Source: Streptomyces sp. SCSIO 75703
Lineage (GTDB): Bacteria; Actinomycetota; Actinomycetes; Streptomycetales; Streptomycetaceae
DNA length: 64,000 nt
Assembly: GCF_036607905.1 (NCBI RefSeq)
Contig: NZ_CP144555.1
Span: 1,116,001 to 1,180,000, forward strand
Direction: 5' to 3'
The notes beneath the pieces were generated by a model. The model was not told the origin of the DNA, did no database searches, and was given only the letters and a program-made list of their open reading frames with translations. Position 1 is the first letter of the stretch. Every line of letters begins with the position of its first letter. Positions 20,646 to 52,285 of the stretch are shown piece by piece. Position numbers and translations under genes: made by a program.

Positions 20646-22018
20646 GGGGTTTCCTGGGCGGCTCGGGTCAGCAGGGTGGTGGAGGAACGGCCGTCGAGGT
20701 AGGGCAGCAGGACCGCCTGGCCGCCCCACTCGTCGAGCAGCCCGGCTTCCGGGAGGTCGGCGCCCGCGTAGTCGCCGCCCTTGACCCACACGTCGGGGCG
20801 CAGGTCGCCGAGGAGGCGTTCGGGGGTGTCCTCGTCGAACACGGCGACCGCGTCGACGCAGGCCAGCGCCCGCAGGACCCGGGCGCGGTCGGCGAGCGGG
20901 CTGACGGGACGGCCCGCGCCCTTGCGGCGCCGTACCGAGGCGTCGGAGTTGACGCACACCACCAGGCAGTCGCCGAGTCGCCGCGCGGCCTGGAGGAGGC
21001 CGACGTGCCCGGCGTGCAGCAGGTCGAAGCAGCCTCCCGCGGCGACGACGGTGCCGTGCGCGCCGCGGACCCGGGCGGCCACCGCGTACGGGTCGTCCGG
21101 GCCGGGCCCGTCCGGCGGGGGCGCCGCCGGTGCGGCGTCGGCGCGGGGCAGCGCCCCGGCACCGCCCGCGGCGACGAAGGCCCCCGCCGCGCCCACCGCG
21201 CCCTCGACGGCCTCCCCGACCAGCGCCCCGTCGGCGAGCAGCCCGGCCGCCGTCGCCGCGAACCGGTCCCCGGCACCGCAGGCGTCGCCCGCGTGGGCGG
21301 CGGACGCGGGAAAGAGCAGCGGGTGTTCCCCGTACGACAGCAGCGCGCCGCGCGGGCCGAGGGTCACCGCGACCGCGGCGGTCCGCCACCGCCGCACCAG
21401 CGCGGCGGCGTCGTGCGCGGCGGCGCGCAGGCCGCCGTCGGGGCGGCCCTCGGGCGGGGCGAAGCCGTGCGCCTCCTTCTCGGCGGGGGTGACCAGGCGG
21501 GTGCCGGGCACCGGCGGTCCGCCGCGCGGGTGCGGGTCCCAGACGAGCGGGGGCCGTTCGGCCAGCAGGTCCCGCAGGGTTTCGGCGGCGCCCCGCCCGT
21601 AGTCGGAGACGAGGACGGCGCGGGCGGAGCGGAGCGCGGCGCGGGCCTCGGCGGTGGCCTCGCGGGCCCGGCCGCCGCCCCGGTCGAGGCGGACGACGGG
21701 CCGGCCGCTCGCCAGTACCCGGGTCTTCTCGGGCAGCGGTCCGTCCAGCGGGAGCGCCACCAACCGCACCCGGGGAGGGAGCAGTTCGCGCAGCGCACGG
21801 CCCGCCTCGTCGTCACCGGCCCCGGTGATGAGGGTGACCTCGCGGCCGTCGCGGGCGGCGAGGCAGGCGGCGAGCGCGGCGCCCCCGGGGCGCAGGTGTT
21901 CCGCGCACTCGGCGATCACCGGCACGGGCGCGTCGGGCGCGAGCCGGTCGGCCGAACCGGTCACGTCACGGTCCAGCAGGGCGTCTCCGACCACGGTCAG
22001 GGGGGTGCGGTCAGGCAT
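20642..22018 (-). CDS. hldE: bifunctional heptose 7-phosphate kinase / heptose 1-phosphate adenylyltransferase
   Basis: 458 residues. The N-terminal part (to about residue 300) is a PfkB-type sugar kinase, with GAALAACLAA near residue 45 and the anion-hole motif HAGDACGAGDRFAA near 270. The C-terminal part from about residue 325 is a cytidylyltransferase-fold nucleotidyltransferase with the HxGH-type motif GCFDLLHAGHVG and VKGGDY. In Gram-negatives this enzyme converts D-glycero-D-manno-heptose 7-phosphate to the 1,7-bisphosphate and later adds AMP to make ADP-heptose. The ATG overlaps the gmhA end by eight bases. Confidence 0.92.
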   Translation of the reverse strand: MPDRTPLTVVGDALLDRDVTGSADRLAPDAPVPVIAECAEHLRPGGAALAACLAARDGREVTLITGAGDDEAGRALRELLPPRVRLVALPLDGPLPEKTRVLASGRPVVRLDRGGGRAREATAEARAALRSARAVLVSDYGRGAAETLRDLLAERPPLVWDPHPRGGPPVPGTRLVTPAEKEAHGFAPPEGRPDGGLRAAAHDAAALVRRWRTAAVAVTLGPRGALLSYGEHPLLFPASAAHAGDACGAGDRFAATAAGLLADGALVGEAVEGAVGAAGAFVAAGGAGALPRADAAPAAPPPDGPGPDDPYAVAARVRGAHGTVVAAGGCFDLLHAGHVGLLQAARRLGDCLVVCVNSDASVRRRKGAGRPVSPLADRARVLRALACVDAVAVFDEDTPERLLGDLRPDVWVKGGDYAGADLPEAGLLDEWGGQAVLLPYLDGRSSTTLLTRAAQETP

Positions 22019-22628
22019 GCGTGCCCTCGCTCTCCCCGGGCCCGGCGGCCCCGGGCCCCTCGTGCAGGGCCGCGTCGAAGGCCGCGCAGACCATGTGCAC
22101 GGCGACCAGGTGGAGTTCCTGGACGGTGGCCGTCGAGAGGGCCTCGACGCACAGGGACTCGTCGCTGCCCGCCATGAGCGGGTTGGGGGCGCGGCCGGTG
22201 AGCGCCCAGACGCGGACCCCGGCGGCGCGGGCCGCGTCGGCCGCGGAGAGCAGGTTGGCGCTGGCACCGCTGGTGGACAGCAGCATCAGCACGTCGCCGG
22301 GGCGCCCGTGGGCGCGGACCTGGCGGGCGAACACCTCGTCCACGCCGTAGTCGTTGGCGATCGCCGTGGTGCTGGAGGTGTCGGCGTGCAGGGCGAGGGC
22401 GGAGAAGGGCGGCCGGTCGTCGCGGTAGCGGCCGACGAGTTCGGCGGTGAGGTGCTGGGCCTGGGCGGCGCTGCCGCCGTTGCCCGCGGCGAGCAGCCGT
22501 CCGCCGCCGGAGAGGACGGCGGCGAGCCCGCGGCCCCAGTCCTCGGTGCGGTGCGCGCGGGCGCGGAAGGCCCCCAGCGCCTCCTGGAGCCGGTCGCAGT
22601 GCCCGAGGACGGGCGGGTGGACGGTCAT
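22011..22628 (-). CDS. gmhA: sedoheptulose 7-phosphate isomerase (SIS domain)
   Basis: 205-residue SIS-domain protein that should isomerise sedoheptulose 7-phosphate to D-glycero-D-manno-heptose 7-phosphate, the first committed step. LLAAGNGGSAAQAQHLTAELVGRY near residue 45, LLSTSGASANLLSAADAAR near 120, and the C-terminal VQELHLVAVHMVCAAFD are GmhA signatures, the last bearing the metal-site His. GGAGGTGG stands five bases before the ATG, which shares one base with the upstream stop (TGATG). Isomerase, kinase/adenylyltransferase and phosphatase are all in this operon. Confidence 0.92.
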   Translation of the reverse strand: MTVHPPVLGHCDRLQEALGAFRARAHRTEDWGRGLAAVLSGGGRLLAAGNGGSAAQAQHLTAELVGRYRDDRPPFSALALHADTSSTTAIANDYGVDEVFARQVRAHGRPGDVLMLLSTSGASANLLSAADAARAAGVRVWALTGRAPNPLMAGSDESLCVEALSTATVQELHLVAVHMVCAAFDAALHEGPGAAGPGESEGTHA

Positions 22629-23845
22629 CACGCCACCTCCTTCGACAGGGCGTGGTCGGCGACGGTCAGCCGGTAGACCTCTTCGGCTCTGTCGGCGACG
22701 CTCCGCCAGGTGTAGTGGGCGAGGACGCGGGCCCGGCCGGCCGCGCCGTGGCGGCGGCGCAGGGCACCGTCGGCGAGGAGTTCCCGGGCCGCGCCGGCGA
22801 TCGCCGCCGGGTCCCCGGGCGGGACGAGGCGCCCGGTGCCCCGGTCGGCGACGGAGTCGCGGTGGCCGCCGACGTCGGTGGCGACGACGGGCACGCCGCA
22901 GGCCATCGCCTCCAGCGGCACGATGCCGAACGGCTCGTAGACCGGGGTGCACAGCACCAGGTCGGCGCTGCCGAGCAGGGCCGGCATGTCCCCGGGGTCG
23001 ACCGCGCCGAGCAGCCGGACCCGGTCGGCGACGCCGGCGCGGTGCGCGAGGCCGGTCAGCCGCCGGGCCTCGGGATCGGCGCCGAGGTCGGCGGCCGGGG
23101 GCCCGCCGGCGACGAGGAGTTCGGTGTCGGGCAGCGCGGCGAGGGCGCGGACGGCCTGGTCGAACCCCTTGCGCGGGACGAGCCGGCCGCAGGCGAGCAG
23201 CCGGTGGCGCCGCCGCCGCGCGGGGGTGCGGGCGCCGACGGCGCCGGGCCGGAAGTGCGCCGCGTCGACACCGCAGGGCACCACGGAGACCCGGTGGGCC
23301 GGCACGCCCATGGCGGCGAGTTCGACGACCTCGTCGGTGCAGGTGGCCAGGACGCGTTCGCAGCCGCGGCCGAGGCGGCGTTCGACGCCGACGCGCTCGG
23401 CGGGGCTGGTGTCGCGCGGGCCCTGGTGGCGCCGCTTGACGGTGCCGAGGGCGTGGAAGGTCTGCACGAGCGGGATGCCGTGCGGGCGCACCCCGACCCC
23501 GCAGGCCAGGCCGGACATCCAGAAGTGGGCGTGCGCCACGTCGGGCCGCTCCACCGCCCAGGCGCGCGCCAGACGGGCGCCGAAGGCGGGCATGTACGGG
23601 AACAGGTCGTCCTTGGGCACGCCCTCGGGCGGGCCGGCCGGCACGTGCTCGACGACCGCGCCGCCGGGCAGCGGCACCCGGTCCGGCAGGTCCGGATCGT
23701 CCCGGCGGGTGTAGACGGTGACGTCGTGGCCGCGCCGGGCCAGTTCCTCGCCGAGGCGGGCCACGTAGACGTTCTGGCCGCCCGCGTCGACCCCGCCGAG
23801 CGCGGCGAGCGGGCTCGCGTGTTCGGACACCAGGGCGATCCTCAT
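22628..23845 (-). CDS. family 4 glycosyltransferase
   Basis: 405-residue GT-B glycosyltransferase of family 4. MRIALVSEHASPLAALGGVDAGGQNVYV is the N-terminal acceptor-domain start, similar to sucrose-phosphate-synthase/MshA-like members. VPCGVDAAHFRP marks the domain border near residue 205. The catalytic donor motif is TPVYEPFGIVPLEAMACGVPVVATDVGG near 320, with the E-x7-E arrangement. The start overlaps the previous gene by ATGA. MshA-like sequences often transfer GlcNAc, but context here suggests a glycan elongation enzyme. Confidence 0.9.
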   Translation of the reverse strand: MRIALVSEHASPLAALGGVDAGGQNVYVARLGEELARRGHDVTVYTRRDDPDLPDRVPLPGGAVVEHVPAGPPEGVPKDDLFPYMPAFGARLARAWAVERPDVAHAHFWMSGLACGVGVRPHGIPLVQTFHALGTVKRRHQGPRDTSPAERVGVERRLGRGCERVLATCTDEVVELAAMGVPAHRVSVVPCGVDAAHFRPGAVGARTPARRRRHRLLACGRLVPRKGFDQAVRALAALPDTELLVAGGPPAADLGADPEARRLTGLAHRAGVADRVRLLGAVDPGDMPALLGSADLVLCTPVYEPFGIVPLEAMACGVPVVATDVGGHRDSVADRGTGRLVPPGDPAAIAGAARELLADGALRRRHGAAGRARVLAHYTWRSVADRAEEVYRLTVADHALSKEVA

Positions 23846-24792
23846 CGGGCCACCTCCTTGAGCAGCCGCTCCCAGTCGTCCAGGAAGCGGGGCAGCCCGT
23901 AGCGGGACAGGGCTGCGGCGCGGGCCCGTTCGCCGACGGCGCGCGCGTGGCCGGGATCGGCCAGGAAGTCCCCTACGGCGTCGGTCAGGACGTCGACGCG
24001 GTGGGAGACCACCCCCGCGCCGGGGGGCACCGCCTCGGGGACCTCGGTGGTGGCGAGCGCGACCACGGGCATGCCCAGGTGCATCGCCTCCAGCAGGGAC
24101 AGGCCCAGCGAGGTCCAGCGCACGGGGTGGACGTAGACGCGCCGCCGGGCCAGTTCGGTGTGCAGCCGGCTCTGGACGACGTCCTCGGTGCGGCAGCGGT
24201 CCGGGGCGAGGCCCAGGTGGCCGGCGAGGCCGTCGGTGCGCATGCCGAACACGTCGAGCGGGGCGGCCCGCGCGAACTCGGGCAGCAGGTCGGTGCCGGT
24301 GGTCCGGCCGCGCCGCACCGGTTCGTTGACGACGACCGCGGCCCGTTCCAGCTCGCCGGTCCAGCGGTGGCCCGGGTCGACGATGCCGTGCTCGACGACG
24401 GTGGCGGGCGTGGGGCCGGCGTCCCACATCAGCCGGTTGAAGTGGGTGACGTGGACGAGGGTGGCGCCGGGGATGTCCGCGGCGGGGTGACGGGTGCGGG
24501 GCACGTCGCCGTCTGGCGCGTTGTGCTCCAGGTACACCAGCGGCGGTCGGCGGCCCAGCCACCGGTCGACCAGGGCGAGTTCGTGCGGGCGTTGCAGGAC
24601 GACGACGTCGACGTCCGCGTCCCGCAGCCGTTCCGGGGGCACCTCGACGACCGAGTCGGGCCAGCGCCAGGTGCGGGCGCGGCCGAGGCCGTCGGGCCCG
24701 CGGTCGGGGGTGACGGGGACGAGGTAGGTGTGCGGGCCCCGCACGAACGCCGTGGTCCACGAGCCGTGCACGTGCCACAGGAGAATCCTCAT
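23842..24792 (-). CDS. glycosyltransferase (GT-B, family 4-like)
   Basis: 316 residues, starting MRILLWHVHGSWTTAFVRGPH. The N-terminal half contains VVVLQRPHELALVDRWL and LVYLEHNAPDGDVPRT; the C-terminal half ends in a GT4-like donor site, HPVRWTSLGLSLLEAMHLGMPVVALATTEVPEAV. It is shorter than a typical GT4 enzyme but both lobes are present. ATGA overlaps at both ends place it in the operon. The acidic pair of the E-x7-E motif is only partly preserved, so substrate and even activity should be treated with caution. Confidence 0.82.
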   Translation of the reverse strand: MRILLWHVHGSWTTAFVRGPHTYLVPVTPDRGPDGLGRARTWRWPDSVVEVPPERLRDADVDVVVLQRPHELALVDRWLGRRPPLVYLEHNAPDGDVPRTRHPAADIPGATLVHVTHFNRLMWDAGPTPATVVEHGIVDPGHRWTGELERAAVVVNEPVRRGRTTGTDLLPEFARAAPLDVFGMRTDGLAGHLGLAPDRCRTEDVVQSRLHTELARRRVYVHPVRWTSLGLSLLEAMHLGMPVVALATTEVPEAVPPGAGVVSHRVDVLTDAVGDFLADPGHARAVGERARAAALSRYGLPRFLDDWERLLKEVAR

Positions 24793-25778
24793 GCCTCCCC
24801 CAGCAGTTTCTCGACGGCCGCCGCCACGTCGGGGCCGGTGACGGAGTCCAGGCAGGGGTGGCCGGGGACGGGGCACTCCCGGGCCCTGCTGCCCGCGCAG
24901 GGCGCGTCCTGGTCTCCGAGCAGCACGGACGGCACGCCGTAGGGCCGCCAGCGCCCGGCCGGCACGACCGGCGCGAACAGCGAGACGACGGGGGTGCCGA
25001 CCGCCGCGGCGAGGTGCGCCGGTGCCGTGTTGCCGGTGACGACGGCCCCCGCGCCCGCGAGGACGCCGGCCAGTTCCGGGGCGCCCGTACGGCCGCCGAG
25101 GTCGGTGCCGTGCCGGCCGGCGACGTGGGCGGTCAGGTCCCGTTCGCCGGAGCCGCCGGTGACCAGCACCCGGTGCCCGGCGGCGGCCAGTTCACGCACC
25201 GCCTCGGCCGCCCGCGCGGCGCTCCAGGCCCGCGCGGGCACGCTGGCGCCGGGGTGCAGCACGACGTACGGTCCCGGTCCCGTCAAGCGACCGGTGCGGG
25301 GCGGTGGATGGACGCGCAGGCGCCCGTCGTCGGACTGGGGGAAACCCGCCGCTCCCGCGAGGTCGAGCGCCGCCTCGGCCTCGTGGGCGCCGGGGGCCCG
25401 CCGGTGGCGCACGTCCAGCAGGGAGCCGGGGTAGTCGACGCTGTCCGCGGCGATGCGGCCGACGCCGGCCAGGCGCAGCACCAGGGCGGTGGGCAGCGGG
25501 GACTGGTGGAACGAGGTGAGGATCAGCGCCGTGTCCGCGTCGATCCGGCCGACCAGCGCGTCGATGTCCTCGCGGCGGACGAGGGGCGGGTCGAAACCGC
25601 CCCAGGGCGCGTCCCACACCAGCACCTCGTCCACGCCGGGCAGCAGGCGGGCGGCGGGGGCGCCCCGGGGTCCGCACAGCAGGGTGACGTGGTCGGCGCG
25701 GGCGGCGACGGCGCGCACGGCGGGCCCGGCGAGCAGGACGTCGCCGAAACTGTCGAGCCGCGTGACGAGTGCCTTCAT
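24789..25778 (-). CDS. family 9 glycosyltransferase (heptosyltransferase-like)
   Basis: 329-residue GT-B enzyme of family 9, the second in this operon. MKALVTRLDSFGDVLLAGPAVRAVAA is a classic GT9 opening, YVVLHPGASVPARAWSAARAAEAV begins the donor lobe near residue 175, and VVTGNTAPAHLAAAVGTPVVSLFAP near 265 is the family signature. A Cys-containing tail (PCAGSRARECPVPGHPCLDSV) is also seen in bacterial heptosyltransferases. With HldE and GmhA/B in the same operon, ADP-heptose is the most natural donor. Start ATG has GGAGG upstream and an ATGA overlap. Confidence 0.9.
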   Translation of the reverse strand: MKALVTRLDSFGDVLLAGPAVRAVAARADHVTLLCGPRGAPAARLLPGVDEVLVWDAPWGGFDPPLVRREDIDALVGRIDADTALILTSFHQSPLPTALVLRLAGVGRIAADSVDYPGSLLDVRHRRAPGAHEAEAALDLAGAAGFPQSDDGRLRVHPPPRTGRLTGPGPYVVLHPGASVPARAWSAARAAEAVRELAAAGHRVLVTGGSGERDLTAHVAGRHGTDLGGRTGAPELAGVLAGAGAVVTGNTAPAHLAAAVGTPVVSLFAPVVPAGRWRPYGVPSVLLGDQDAPCAGSRARECPVPGHPCLDSVTGPDVAAAVEKLLGEA

Positions 25779-26590
25779 CGAAGCCTCCGGGAGGTCGCCG
25801 GGGGCGGGGTCTGGGGGGCGGTCGAGGGGCGGAGGGTGGTCGAGGGGTGGGAGGGCGTCTCGCCGGGCGCCGTCGGCGTGTCGGCAGTGAGACGGGAACG
25901 GGGAGCCTCGGGCGTGTCGGGCGCCGTCGGCGTGCCGGGGTCGGGGCGCCTCGGCGTGTCGGGCTGCCCCGGCGTGTCGGCGGTCAGACGGAAGCGGGGC
26001 ACCTCGCGCGTGTCGGGCGCCGTCGGCGTGCCGGGGTCGGGGCGCCTCGGCGTGTCGGGCTGCCCCGGCGTGTCGGCGGTGAGGAGGGCGCGTACGGCGG
26101 TCGGCAGGTCCGGGGCGACGTGGTCCGCGGCCGACGTCTCCGCCGGACGGGTCCGGTCGTTCGGGACGAGGACGCCCCGTGCGCCGGCCCGTTCCGCCGC
26201 CTCGATGTCGGCGCCGATGTCGCCGATGACCACACAGTCGGCCGGGTGGACGCAGATCCGCCCCGCCGCCCACAGCACCAGGCCGGGCCGGGGCTTGCGG
26301 CAGTGGCAGCCGTCGTCGGGGCCGTGCGGGCAGACGGCCCACACGTCGAAGGGGCCGAGGAGGTCGTCGACGCGACGGTTGACGTGCCGGACCCCGGCGT
26401 CGGTGACCAGTCCGCGCGCGATGCCGGACTGGTTGGTGACCACGCCGGTGCGGATGCCGTGCGCGCGCAGCAGCGCGACCGCCTCGCGGGCGCCGTCGAC
26501 GGGCCGCACCCGGTCCGGGTCGCCGTTGTAGGGGACGTCGTGGACGAGGGTGCCGTCGCGGTCGAAGAGCACCGCCTTGAGGGGGCTCAT
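25775..26590 (-). CDS. gmhB: heptose bisphosphate phosphatase (HAD family) with repetitive C-terminal tail
   Basis: 271 residues. Residues 1-175 form a HAD phosphatase of the GmhB/histidinol-phosphatase group: FDRDGTL near residue 10 (nucleophile Asp), VVTNQSGIARG near 50, a zinc-binding loop with CPHGPDDGCHCRKPRPG near 88, and VVIGDIGADIEAAERAG near 120. It should remove the 7-phosphate from heptose 1,7-bisphosphate. The last 95 residues are not part of the fold: two 32-residue units beginning LTADTPGQPDTP plus a partial third form a Pro/Thr/Asp-rich tail. Confidence 0.9.
   Translation of the reverse strand: MSPLKAVLFDRDGTLVHDVPYNGDPDRVRPVDGAREAVALLRAHGIRTGVVTNQSGIARGLVTDAGVRHVNRRVDDLLGPFDVWAVCPHGPDDGCHCRKPRPGLVLWAAGRICVHPADCVVIGDIGADIEAAERAGARGVLVPNDRTRPAETSAADHVAPDLPTAVRALLTADTPGQPDTPRRPDPGTPTAPDTREVPRFRLTADTPGQPDTPRRPDPGTPTAPDTPEAPRSRLTADTPTAPGETPSHPSTTLRPSTAPQTPPPATSRRLR
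25856..26083 (-). repeat. in-frame 96-bp tandem repeat in gmhB
   Basis: Two full 96-bp units (26083-25988 and 25987-25892) and a partial third encode the 32-residue LTADTPG repeats at the GmhB C-terminus. The unit is a multiple of three and nearly identical between copies at the DNA level, suggesting recent duplication; copy-number change would keep the frame and the ATGA junction to the next gene. Confidence 0.88.
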
Positions 26591-27621
26591 GCGGCCACCT
26601 CCCGCCAGGCCGGGGCGGCGCGGTACCGCCACAGCCCGCTCAGCCGGTGCCAGGTGGCGGCCGGCGGGATGAGCACGCTGGTGACGACCATGGCGGCGAC
26701 CTCCTCCCGGTTCCGCGGTCCGGGCGCGATGCGGGCCCAGGCGAACTCGCCGGTGCCCGCCGCCCAGCCGAGCCCGGCGACCGCCGCGGCCCGGGGCCGG
26801 CCGGCCGCGGCCAGCACGAGCGCGGCGAGGCCCGCCGCGGTGACGGCGGCGTGGCGGCGGATACGGCCCCGGGGCGCGACCGCCTTGGCCCACCAGTCGG
26901 GACCGTGCAGGCGCCGCATGAGGGCGTCGTCGGCGTTGCCGCGCTGCTGCCGCAGGGAGACCCAGCGGGAGGCGGGCCGGACCGGGTGCCGGGTGGTGCG
27001 CCGGCCACGGCGGATGCGCCAGCCCTGGTCGAGCACGCGCAGCGCGAGGTCGGCGTCCTCCCGGTAGGCCCGGGTGAACCGCTCGTCGAAGCCGCCGACC
27101 TGTTTGAGGACGTCGGTGCGGTAGGCCATGTCGGCGGTGATCCAGCGGGCCCGCGCGAGGCCCGCGGTGCCGCGTTCCCAGTCGGTGGGCCGGCGCTCGC
27201 CGGGCAGCGGCACGGCGATCACGCCCTGGACGGCGCCCGTGTCGGGGGCCACCTCGGCGAGGTCCTGCACCAACTGGGCGCGCCAGTGCGGCCCGACCTG
27301 CACGTCGTCGTCCAGGAAGGCGGTCCACGGCGCGATCACCGCGCGCATCCCGGTGTTGCGGGCGGCGGCGGGCCCCCGGCCCCCGCTGCGCAGCACCACG
27401 GTGCGCTCGCGCAGGTCGCCGAGGACACTCATCGGGTGCTCCAGCGCGGCGGGGTCCTCGTGGGGGCCGGGGCGGTCGTCGACGAGCACGATCTCGTCCG
27501 GTCCCGGTCCGGTCGAGGCGGCCAGCGCGGCCAGGCAGTCGGCCAGCGTGTCCCGTACGAGGGTGGGGATCACCACGGCGTACCCGGTCAGGGCGGGATC
27601 GGTCAGGGCGCGGTCGGTCAT
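26587..27621 (-). CDS. family 2 glycosyltransferase
   Basis: 344-residue GT-A glycosyltransferase. YAVVIPTLVRDTLADCL is the N-terminal strand; VLVDDRPGP near residue 45 and AFLDDDVQVGP near 105 carry the nucleotide- and metal-binding acids. VGGFDERFTRAYREDADLALRVLDQGW near 170 is the acceptor loop with the ED catalytic motif. A C-terminal segment from about 260 has one or two hydrophobic stretches (AAVTAAGLAALVLAAAG) that may anchor it to the membrane. ATGA overlaps both neighbours. Confidence 0.88.
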   Translation of the reverse strand: MTDRALTDPALTGYAVVIPTLVRDTLADCLAALAASTGPGPDEIVLVDDRPGPHEDPAALEHPMSVLGDLRERTVVLRSGGRGPAAARNTGMRAVIAPWTAFLDDDVQVGPHWRAQLVQDLAEVAPDTGAVQGVIAVPLPGERRPTDWERGTAGLARARWITADMAYRTDVLKQVGGFDERFTRAYREDADLALRVLDQGWRIRRGRRTTRHPVRPASRWVSLRQQRGNADDALMRRLHGPDWWAKAVAPRGRIRRHAAVTAAGLAALVLAAAGRPRAAAVAGLGWAAGTGEFAWARIAPGPRNREEVAAMVVTSVLIPPAATWHRLSGLWRYRAAPAWREVAA

Positions 27622-29252
27622 CCGAACGCCCTCCCCCTGCGCACCGCGAACGGCCCGATCGCCAGCAGGTCCACGGGCGCGGACCCGAAGCACTCCAGCG
27701 CGTCGCGCGGGTTGTCGACCACGGGCCGGCCGGCGGTGTTGAGGCTGGTGTTGACCACCACGGGCAGTCCGGTGCGCCGTTCGAAGCCGCGCAGCATGCG
27801 GGCGACGAGCGGTTCGCGGCGTTCCGCCACGGTCTGGATGCGGGCGGTGCCGTCGACGTGCACGACGGCCGGGATGCGGTCGCGCCAAGCGGCCGCCACC
27901 TCGTGCACGAAGAGCATGTACGGGCTGGGCACCGGACCGGCGAAGACGTCGGCGGCGCGGTCGGCGAGCACCATGGGCGCGACGGGCCGGAACTCCTCGC
28001 GTCCCTTGACGTGGTTGAGGCGTTCCAGGTTCTCCGCCCGGCCCGGGTGGGCCAGCAGGGAACGGTGGCCGAGCGCCCGCGGCCCGAACTCGCTCCGCCC
28101 CTGGAACCAGGCCACGACGCCGTCCCGCGCGAGTTCCTCGGCGACCGTCTCGGCGATGTCGTCCGGTTCCTCGTAGGGGACGGCGGCCGTCTCCAGCCGG
28201 GCGCGGATCTCGTCGTCGCTCCAGCCGCGCCCGAGGTCGGCGCCGGGCATGGGGGCGGGGACGGCCTCGTCGGCGGCGAGGTGCAGGGCGCCGCCGAGGG
28301 CGGTGCCGGCGTCGCCGGCGGCGGGCTGCACCCACACGTGCCGGTAGGGGCCGCGGGCGGCGATCGCCGAGTTGGCGACGCAGTTGAGGGCGACGCCGCC
28401 GGCCATGGTGAGGGCGTCGCCGCCGGCCTCGCGGTGCAGCCAGTGCGTGAGGTCGAGGAGGAGTTCCTCCAGGGCGGCCTGGGTGCTGGCGGCCAGGTCG
28501 GCGTGGTCGCGGGTCCAGTCCTCGCCGGGGGCGCGGGGCGGGGCGAGGGCGGCCCAGTCGACGCCGTGGGCGCGGAACCCTCCGTCGCCGGTGGCGTGCA
28601 CGTGCTCGCGCACCCGGTCCAGGAAGCGAGGGGTGCCGTAGGAGGCGAGGGCCATCACCTTGTACTCGTCGCTGCTGCGCAGGAAGCCGAGGTGTTCGGT
28701 GAGTTCCTCGTAGACCAGGCCGAGGGAGTGCGGCAGCGCCTGCGTGGCGAGGGTGTCGAGTTTGCCGTCGCGGTAGCGGCCCGCGAGGTGGGAGGCGCAT
28801 TCGCCGCGGCCGTCCAGGACGAGGACGTCGTTGTCGGGATGGGGCGAGGCCGGTCCGGCGGAGGCGGCGTGCGCCACATGGTGCGGGACGAAGACGACCT
28901 GGCCGGGGTCGAGTCCGGGCAGTGCCTCGGCGAGGAACTCGGGCGCGCGGCGGGCGTACTCCAGCCGCAGCGGGTCCCAGGGGTCGTCCAGCCCCATGGC
29001 CTCGGCGGGCCGGGCGAGCCGCGGGTCGAAGGAGTAGGCGACGGCGTCCAGTTCGCCGGGCCGTACCCCGGCGTGCTCCAGGCACCACCGGGCCGACAGC
29101 TCCGGCATCTCCCACGCGGAGAAGGGCACGGGGCGCTTGCCGTGCTTGCGCCGGCTGAAACGCTCTTCCTCGGCTGCCGCCACGGTTCGTCCGTCGACGA
29201 CGAGCGCGGCGGCCGGGTCGTGGAACAGGGCGTTGATCCCAAGGATGCGCAT
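27618..29252 (-). CDS. carbamoyltransferase (TobZ/NodU/CmcH family), first gene of glycan operon
   Basis: 544 residues. MRILGINALFHDPAAALVVDG starts the Kae1-like N-terminal domain; VPHHVAHAASA near residue 115 supplies the His metal ligands, and DGRGE and AGGVALNCVANS follow. The C-terminal domain from about 360 contains QGRSEFGPRALGHRSLLA and NTSLNTAGRPVV. Family members attach a carbamoyl group, made from carbamoyl phosphate and ATP, to a hydroxyl of a sugar or antibiotic. It is promoter-proximal in the operon, implying the final glycan is carbamoylated. The start has GGAG five bases upstream; the 9-bp repeat and GTTCACA array lie upstream. Confidence 0.9.
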   Translation of the reverse strand: MRILGINALFHDPAAALVVDGRTVAAAEEERFSRRKHGKRPVPFSAWEMPELSARWCLEHAGVRPGELDAVAYSFDPRLARPAEAMGLDDPWDPLRLEYARRAPEFLAEALPGLDPGQVVFVPHHVAHAASAGPASPHPDNDVLVLDGRGECASHLAGRYRDGKLDTLATQALPHSLGLVYEELTEHLGFLRSSDEYKVMALASYGTPRFLDRVREHVHATGDGGFRAHGVDWAALAPPRAPGEDWTRDHADLAASTQAALEELLLDLTHWLHREAGGDALTMAGGVALNCVANSAIAARGPYRHVWVQPAAGDAGTALGGALHLAADEAVPAPMPGADLGRGWSDDEIRARLETAAVPYEEPDDIAETVAEELARDGVVAWFQGRSEFGPRALGHRSLLAHPGRAENLERLNHVKGREEFRPVAPMVLADRAADVFAGPVPSPYMLFVHEVAAAWRDRIPAVVHVDGTARIQTVAERREPLVARMLRGFERRTGLPVVVNTSLNTAGRPVVDNPRDALECFGSAPVDLLAIGPFAVRRGRAFG

Positions 29253-29357
29253 GGAGGCTCCGTCCCGGGCGGTTCGTGGTCCTGCGGGTGTTCGGGTGCT
29301 GCTGCTGGTACTGCGGGGGTTCGGGCGCTGCGAGTGGGGGGCGGGTACCGCCAGCGG

Positions 29358-29420
29358 TTCAAGCCGTTCGAGCGGTTCAGGCGGTTCGAGTTCTTCATGC
29401 GGTTCGAGTGCTTCAGGTGA
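29358..29420. repeat. 9-bp tandem repeat, seven units
   Basis: Seven consecutive units start TTC at exactly nine-base spacing (29358, 29367, 29376, 29385, 29394, 29403, 29412), with consensus TTCRAGCGG. It lies 106-168 bases upstream of the carbamoyltransferase start, inside the presumed 5' leader. Confidence 0.85.
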
Positions 29421-29558
29421 CTCGGGGAGACGGGTGCCGACGGGCGGCTGGTTCAAACACTTGGAGCCAGCCTGGTTCCGGACATGAGAGGACTTGTGAC
29501 CGTGCGTAGGGGTTCGGGGTGGGACGGCAAGGGCGTTGGGCAGCATGGACCGTGGATG

Positions 29559-30168
29559 TTCACGGGTGACGCAGCGGGTGGCCGGGGATGCAGACGGACG
29601 CGCCGTGCGTGAGTTCACAGGAGGCCCGAGTTCACAGCGGCGGCTGCGGGTTCACAGGGAGGGGCGGAGGCCCACGGGCGCGCGGGTTCACAGGAGCTGG
29701 GGGTTCACGAGGCCGCTGCGGGTTCACAGAAGGTGCGGGGTCGCGGTAGGCCGCTTGTGAACGCCGTGCCGCCGGTTCACACGCCCCGGGGAGTTCACAG
29801 GACGCGCGCGCCGGCCCCGCGCGCGGGCCACCCGGCGGGACGGGGTGACGTCACCCGAGTACGACGCCTCGCCGCCGCGGCAGTTCACAGCGACCCGGTC
29901 GATTCACAGACGGCACCGAACCCGAGGAGTTCACACGAAGCGACCGGTTCACACCGGGCGGCGCACGCCTGAAGCAGTTCACATAGCGCGGAGGGTTCAC
30001 AGCCGTGCAGACCTGGCAGAGTTCACATGCAGCGACAGGTTCACAGACACTTCAGTTCACGCGAAGCGGCGGGTTCACAATCACCTCAGTTACACAACAA
30101 GCCGCGAGGCAGGGTGTTTTCAGTGTGAATACTCCGTCACCGATTCACAGCAGGGGCTGAGTTCACAC
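29559..30168. repeat. array of about 23 GTTCACA-type heptamers
   Basis: TTCAC cores on the plus strand start at 29559, 29614, 29631, 29651, 29687, 29704, 29723, 29776, 29794, 29884, 29903, 29930, 29948, 29978, 29996, 30022, 30040, 30056, 30074, 30144 and 30162; inverted copies (TGTGAA) are at 29756 and 30124. Consensus is RGTTCACA followed mostly by G or C. Neighbouring cores are most often 16-20 bases apart. Spacers are unrelated. The heptamer resembles the PhoP direct-repeat core GTTCACC but has A at position 7 and lacks the 11-base spacing. Function unknown. Confidence 0.9.
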
Positions 30169-30245
30169 TCCGCCAGCCCGAAACACCGCCCCGCCCGAAA
30201 CCCCGCCCCGCCCCGCCCCAGCCCCCACGCTCCACCATCCGCCCG

Positions 30246-31646
<1,401 letters not shown>

Positions 31647-42241: not shown

Positions 42242-42297
42242 GCCGCGCGGCGGCCCGTTTCGCCGTCGCCGGGGGTGGCCTGAAGTCCCACGACTTT

Positions 42298-52175: not shown

Positions 52176-52285
52176 GGCGTCCTCCTGTGAACGGACGTTT
52201 CGGTACTTGGGGTCATTACGGCGGGTTGTCTCTCCCGCGTCAAGCACGATAAGGGCACGGCGCCCGACTCTTCACCTCGCACGCA

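Follow-up and report, generated by a model that had tools for sequence, protein, structure and literature searches.

In the window analysed here, a 64,000-nucleotide stretch of contig NZ_CP144555.1 of Streptomyces sp. SCSIO 75703 (positions 1,116,001 to 1,180,000), a dense array of the heptamer GTTCACA occupies non-coding DNA between two co-directional minus-strand genes, which encode an epimerase and a carbamoyltransferase. This raises the question of which protein, if any, reads the repeats, and whether they serve the glycan gene row that starts with the carbamoyltransferase gene. The explanation that we favour, and that we hold at about an even chance, regards the array as a lineage-specific group of GTTCACA/TGTGAAC half-sites, the same half-site as in a conserved upstream element of a gene for a predicted helix-turn-helix (HTH)/methyltransferase-like protein, and this protein as a regulator that likely binds them.

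Within positions 29613–30167, GTTCACA occurs exactly 17 times, 16 times on the plus strand and once on the minus strand, and the only other copy in the window lies at 52186. In dinucleotide-shuffled versions of the 64 kb, the mean was 2.1 copies and the maximum 8, in agreement with the initial annotation, which had described the density as far above chance. When one mismatch is allowed, 23 boxes are obtained in 29558–30167, and its count of 21 direct and two inverted copies is thus reproduced; its figure of 73% for the GC content, however, is 67% in the region of the array. The base following GTTCAC in the array is A in 17 cases and G in 3, and never C or T, and the most common distance between adjacent plus-strand boxes is 18 bp, seen in 6 of 20 spacings (P = 0.0004 if boxes were placed at random). 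No RNA family reached the gathering threshold in 29000–30400, no intrinsic terminators and no sigma-70-like promoters, the one promoter type covered by the scan, were predicted in 29200–30300, and plasmid and phage collections held no match to 29300–30240, on which ground a mobile origin of the array was rejected. Three-box patterns are frequent among the matches listed for viral contigs; having no baseline, they were counted neither way.

The PhoP unit is GTTCACC at 11-bp spacing, and since GTTCACA is one base off this unit, binding by PhoP or a PhoP-like response regulator can be envisaged. However, GTTCACC is absent from the array and no two boxes are 11 bp apart, on which grounds this reading was rejected as highly improbable, in line with the dissimilarity to the PhoP repeat that had been pointed out before. 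Alternatively, the NADH sensor Rex might bind the boxes as half-sites: TGTGAAC is a half-site common to the array and the Rex operator, whose reported consensus in S. coelicolor is TGTGAACNNNTTCACA, and some half-sites are reported to be bound (PMC5355995). The Rex operator, however, is a close inverted pair with a short spacer, whereas the boxes are mostly direct and 16–20 bp apart, with a spacing of about 18 bp. Furthermore, the array contains no TTGTGA-N6-TCACAA palindrome at up to two mismatches, the sole Rex-like palindrome of the window at this tolerance lies at 42296, and GTTCACA is followed by A in 2 of 17 boxes. Rex, which we consider highly improbable, was rejected on account of the direct layout and the missing palindrome.

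The genome-wide scan that the initial annotation had proposed revealed five arrays besides that of the window, three of which (L023, L024, and L025) are located in reading frames. Overall, the genome contains 50 pairs of GTTCACA with gaps of 5–30 bp, compared with none for the reversed word, the highest count among 392 genomes of the genus (the next, G207, has 22). The spacings fall on multiples of 9 in 11/11 cases in L021, 8/8 in L023, 14/14 in L024, and 9/9 in L025.

The coding arrays allow selection on the DNA word to be separated from selection on the protein. The boxes are read as Val-Asn (VN) and Val-His (VH) in L025, as VN in L023, and as Phe-Thr (FT) in L024, and they demand codons that this genome avoids: among 38,537 codons, GTT encodes 13 of 3373 Val and ACA 13 of 2277 Thr, and 1.4% of codons end in T. 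Nevertheless, GTT is used in 9/9 VH of L025 and ACA in 15/16 FT of L024, while a T-ending codon precedes 5/5 VN in L025 and 9/13 in L023. The same holds for 26 further orthologs of the L025 gene (HTH identity of at least 84%), in which a T-ending codon stands before 92 of 125 VN, against a background of 111 in 3458 codons, and GTT occurs in 44 of 60 VH. The differing frames and the avoided codons therefore indicate selection on the DNA word and rule out protein repeats as the cause of the coding arrays.

The codon evidence also bears on a minisatellite expansion, in which tandem duplication would have spread units that hold GTTCACA by chance, with no reader at all. Tandem Repeats Finder detected degenerate periods of 36 bp at 29613–29741 (73% match) and 34 bp at 30020–30096 (76% match), which show that duplication helped to build parts of the window array, and near-identical-unit repeats of 14–27 bp with GTTCACA occur in other genomes. 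Several findings speak against such an expansion, which we judge improbable: outside the heptamer, the sequences around the window and L027 boxes hold little information except for a G bias at −2; unrelated arrays have the heptamer in common; and avoided codons are retained in all three readings of the coding arrays. The statement of the initial annotation that the heptamers are "not slipped" is thus upheld by the flanks and qualified by the degenerate periods.

A link to a protein comes from the L025 gene. Nine array loci first fetched from other genomes and 16 further loci were picked for showing box pairs, and 8 of the first nine arrays lie inside one gene, which encodes an N-terminal HTH, a low-complexity linker containing the boxes, and an N6_Mtase domain (PF02384). 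Upstream of this gene is an element composed of TGTGAAC, CGA, and GTCAAC (TGTGAACCGAGTCAAC), followed by a majority RTTCACR at +19 and GTWCACG at +37, i.e., direct boxes at a distance of 18 bp. This unit is found again in the window array, the boxes of which are identical to the TGTGAAC half-site. The family was sampled as 30 returned, 20 close, and 20 distant regions out of a larger number of matches; L169 and L184 were left out as repeats of L161 and L025, and L166, from another genus, has no HTH match. Over 77 loci, the element (at least 11 of 13 fixed positions) is present at 58/58 with an HTH identity of at least 66% and at 9/19 of the more distant ones, one of which adjoins a DISARM-like cluster. 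Across 101 genomes, TGTGAACNNNGTCAAY occurs in 50/53 with a strong HTH match (E ≤ 4.4e-30) and in 7/48 others, five of which have a weaker HTH match (p = 3e-17; statistics uncorrected for relatedness). In the genome under study it occurs at two sites, upstream of the HTH/methyltransferase-like gene and at the edge of the L021 array. The initial annotation's proposal of a selected, high-copy site for an undescribed factor is supported, and a candidate for this factor can now be named.

The N6_Mtase domain of the candidate departs from that of an active enzyme. Motif IV of active N6-adenine DNA methyltransferases is described as [SDN]PP[FYW] (PMC10853773), whereas HPPF replaces the catalytic NPPF in our protein, which does not conform to the motif, and at 54/54 loci with an HTH identity of at least 70%. 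The methyltransferase-like domain of the candidate is, by its sequence, probably inactive. In a fold model, the N-terminal domain shows a modest match to a MerR/BldC-like winged helix.

Several results weigh against binding of the array by this protein. The full TGTGAACNNNGTCAAY element is absent from 29200–30300 (best 11/16), for which reason the window array is classed as a half-site cluster and not as an operator copy. Linker arrays of at least three boxes occur at 18/77 loci, 8 of them picked for their arrays, from which it follows that the linker array is dispensable and the upstream element is not. Since coding arrays require spacings in multiples of 3, their multiples of 9 are only partly informative, and the 9-bp register is loose in the window (7/14 exact same-strand spacings) and in L027 (1/7). 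Several winged helices, TniQ among them, match the fold model as well as BldC does, and Foldseek found no match below E 0.001 for the N-terminal fold. The near-identical-unit repeats of other genomes, which may be plain minisatellites, count on the same side. Lastly, with the genome under study set aside, box pairs are only slightly more numerous in genomes with the gene (mean 2.6 in 52 genomes versus 1.5 in 48, one-sided p = 0.049; at least six pairs in 5 genomes versus 1), and a 9-bp tandem of the box occurs in G094, which has no HTH match. Such weak tracking of the gene by array counts, together with boxes in genomes without an HTH match, is what would be expected if a separate reader bound the boxes and the methyltransferase-like gene were just its most conserved target. 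However, the element tracks the presence of the HTH family over the 101 genomes and accompanies distant family members in other gene contexts, so a separate reader appears unlikely, though a more serious contender than the alternatives considered above.

As for the glycan operon, the initial annotation had viewed the array as controlling the heptose/carbamoyl operon itself. This view is not supported, since both outcomes that it had named as refuting, further arrays in the genome and relatives without the array, were observed. The carbamoyltransferase gene lies 361 bases downstream of the array, and the gap between the called epimerase and carbamoyltransferase genes is 993 bp. An epimerase adjoins in 50 of the 80 orthologous loci; there, the gap, measured from match end to match start and leaving uncounted the 30 loci without an epimerase in place, is 34–432 bp and contains no box in 48 loci and one in 2. 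All 80 have at most two exact boxes in 1.5 kb upstream (a shorter stretch in L083 and L148); these are named records with a carbamoyltransferase identity of up to 93%, among which nearer relatives may be absent. The array is thus particular to its own lineage and no ancestral control element of the operon, and an effect on the operon, if any, is possible as a lineage-specific one.

The favoured explanation suggests the following mechanism. The N-terminal MerR/BldC-type winged helix would read the box, and protomers may assemble head-to-tail along a 9-bp register, a pair of boxes at 18 bp being the favoured unit. The protein could exert feedback on its own gene from both the promoter and the gene body, and the N-to-H change would make it a non-methylating, perhaps S-adenosylmethionine-sensing, transcription factor. 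Coated with the protein, the window array would act as a block separating the epimerase gene from the carbamoyltransferase operon, and might damp transcription into this operon and bring it under the regulator; additionally, the array would titrate the regulator. BldC of Streptomyces, a protein of 68 residues that recognises AATTXXXX(C), reads direct repeats in a 9-bp register (PMC5859096) and may resemble the predicted reader in this register and in its modelled winged-helix fold; unlike BldC, the predicted reader has a methyltransferase-like domain attached to it and its box is TGTGAAC. A precedent in kind is provided by M.SsoII and M.Ecl18kI, DNA methyltransferases that, in the account cited, regulate transcription, the N-terminal region of M.SsoII binding a promoter-region site apart from the methylation site and repressing its own gene (PMC3978073). 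These are, however, active C5 enzymes with one 15-bp quasi-palindrome, whereas the predicted regulator has an N6-type domain that carries HPPF, and its predicted sites are a composite operator and multi-box arrays.

A possible origin of the regulator is indicated by paralogs near defence genes. In G097, a family member (L222) that keeps NPPF and has no linker array belongs to the same HTH family and shares TGTGAACNNNGTCAAY elements; nearby is a DISARM-like set comprising an SNF2-type helicase, an Eco57I/MmeI-type methylase, and a DrmA gene (PADLOC E 2e-297). At distances of 54–237 bp, TGTGAACTRAGTCAAY elements precede the DrmA gene as well as three other large called genes, which makes this island a possible defence regulon. 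Similar elements precede large genes in G032 and G130, and together these suggest that the HTH/methyltransferase-like family regulates defence islands, from which the conserved copy would have been domesticated. More broadly, it may tentatively be proposed, with less confidence than the binding of the array itself, that in Streptomyces a DNA methyltransferase of the phage-defence type became domesticated as a non-methylating, S-adenosylmethionine-sensing transcription factor polymerising on a 9-bp-register code, the tracts of which spread by lineage through intergenic DNA and coding linkers, overriding codon choice and rewiring operons such as the glycan cluster.

No published account of the element or its regulator was found in the open-licence literature, the Rex paper apart, nor of a GTTCACA array in Streptomyces among open-licence papers by title and abstract. 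The present analysis ties a non-coding array to a conserved regulator family undescribed in the literature searched, supplies the upstream element of this family, and reveals a DNA signal that coding sequence retains despite codon preference. If the proposal is true, it would provide a testable example of how a restriction-type enzyme became a regulator, might give an operator code for DISARM-type islands, and would make visible how arrays of binding sites emerge at new genes.

Table. Location of the arrays, their boxes, and associated genes (window numbering unless a locus label is given; L021 to L027 are in the genome under study).
Feature	Position	Strand	Family, method, or context
Predicted glycan genes: GT2, HAD hydrolase, GT9 (heptosyltransferase family), two GT1/GT4, SIS-domain genes	22011..27621	-	
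Carbamoyltransferase gene, first of glycan gene row	27618..29252	-	PF16861, PF02543
Degenerate 9/18-bp GTTCNNG repeat	29353..29415	+	weaker than array
GTTCACA array, 17 exact boxes	29613..30167	+ (1 box on -)	exact word scan
Exact box starts	29613, 29630, 29650, 29686, 29722, 29775, 29793, 29883, 29929, 29947, 29977, 29995, 30021, 30039, 30073, 30161	+	
Sole exact minus-strand box	29756	-	
Six one-mismatch boxes (29558..30149)	29558, 29703, 29902, 30055, 30143 (+); 30124 (-)		
NAD-dependent epimerase/dehydratase gene	30246..31160	-	PF01370; upstream of array
L021 array	2528004-2528487		upstream of tadA-type gene
L023 array	2989259-2989508		inside DUF2637 gene
L024 array	3388030-3388477		inside 696-codon open frame without assigned function
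L025 array	4151130-4151434		inside HTH/N6-methyltransferase-like gene (L025:8628-11390)
L027 array	6655632-6656016		non-coding by gene calls
G097 DISARM-like island with HTH/N6-methyltransferase gene	L425:1890-3605, L425:6454-13994, L427:11725-15543		

Additional observations were made at or near these loci. The GTTCNNG repeat next to the window array possibly represents weak boxes in the register of the array. At L021:8996-9011, a 15/16 near-copy of the element lies about 80 bases upstream of the tadA-type secretion ATPase gene, and the tadA-type operon may accordingly belong to the regulon. Downstream of the HTH/methyltransferase-like gene (L163–L168 and L025) are a conserved gene of unknown function and then a Ser/Thr kinase-TPR gene, whose match to the PADLOC PD-T4-6 models may reflect the kinase fold alone. 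In the genome under study, a non-coding tract at L026:8358-8990 (about 4.747 Mb), which follows an RNA methyltransferase gene, contains repeated GTTCAC...GTGAGC pairs and differs in arrangement from the other arrays. In other genomes, L246:4024-4086 (G123) and L247:4005-4249 (G111) share an array that lies between convergent genes and repeats the spacer GACCGGTCG; this is apparently one intergenic site present in two species. Tandem repeats of near-identical 9- to 26-bp units with GTTCACA in G410, G403, G182, G045, and G094 may be simple minisatellites or further arrays. Finally, the array at L248:3957-4152 (G111), located in a called reading frame, includes an exact copy of the 16-base element, with boxes at multiples of 27 bp.
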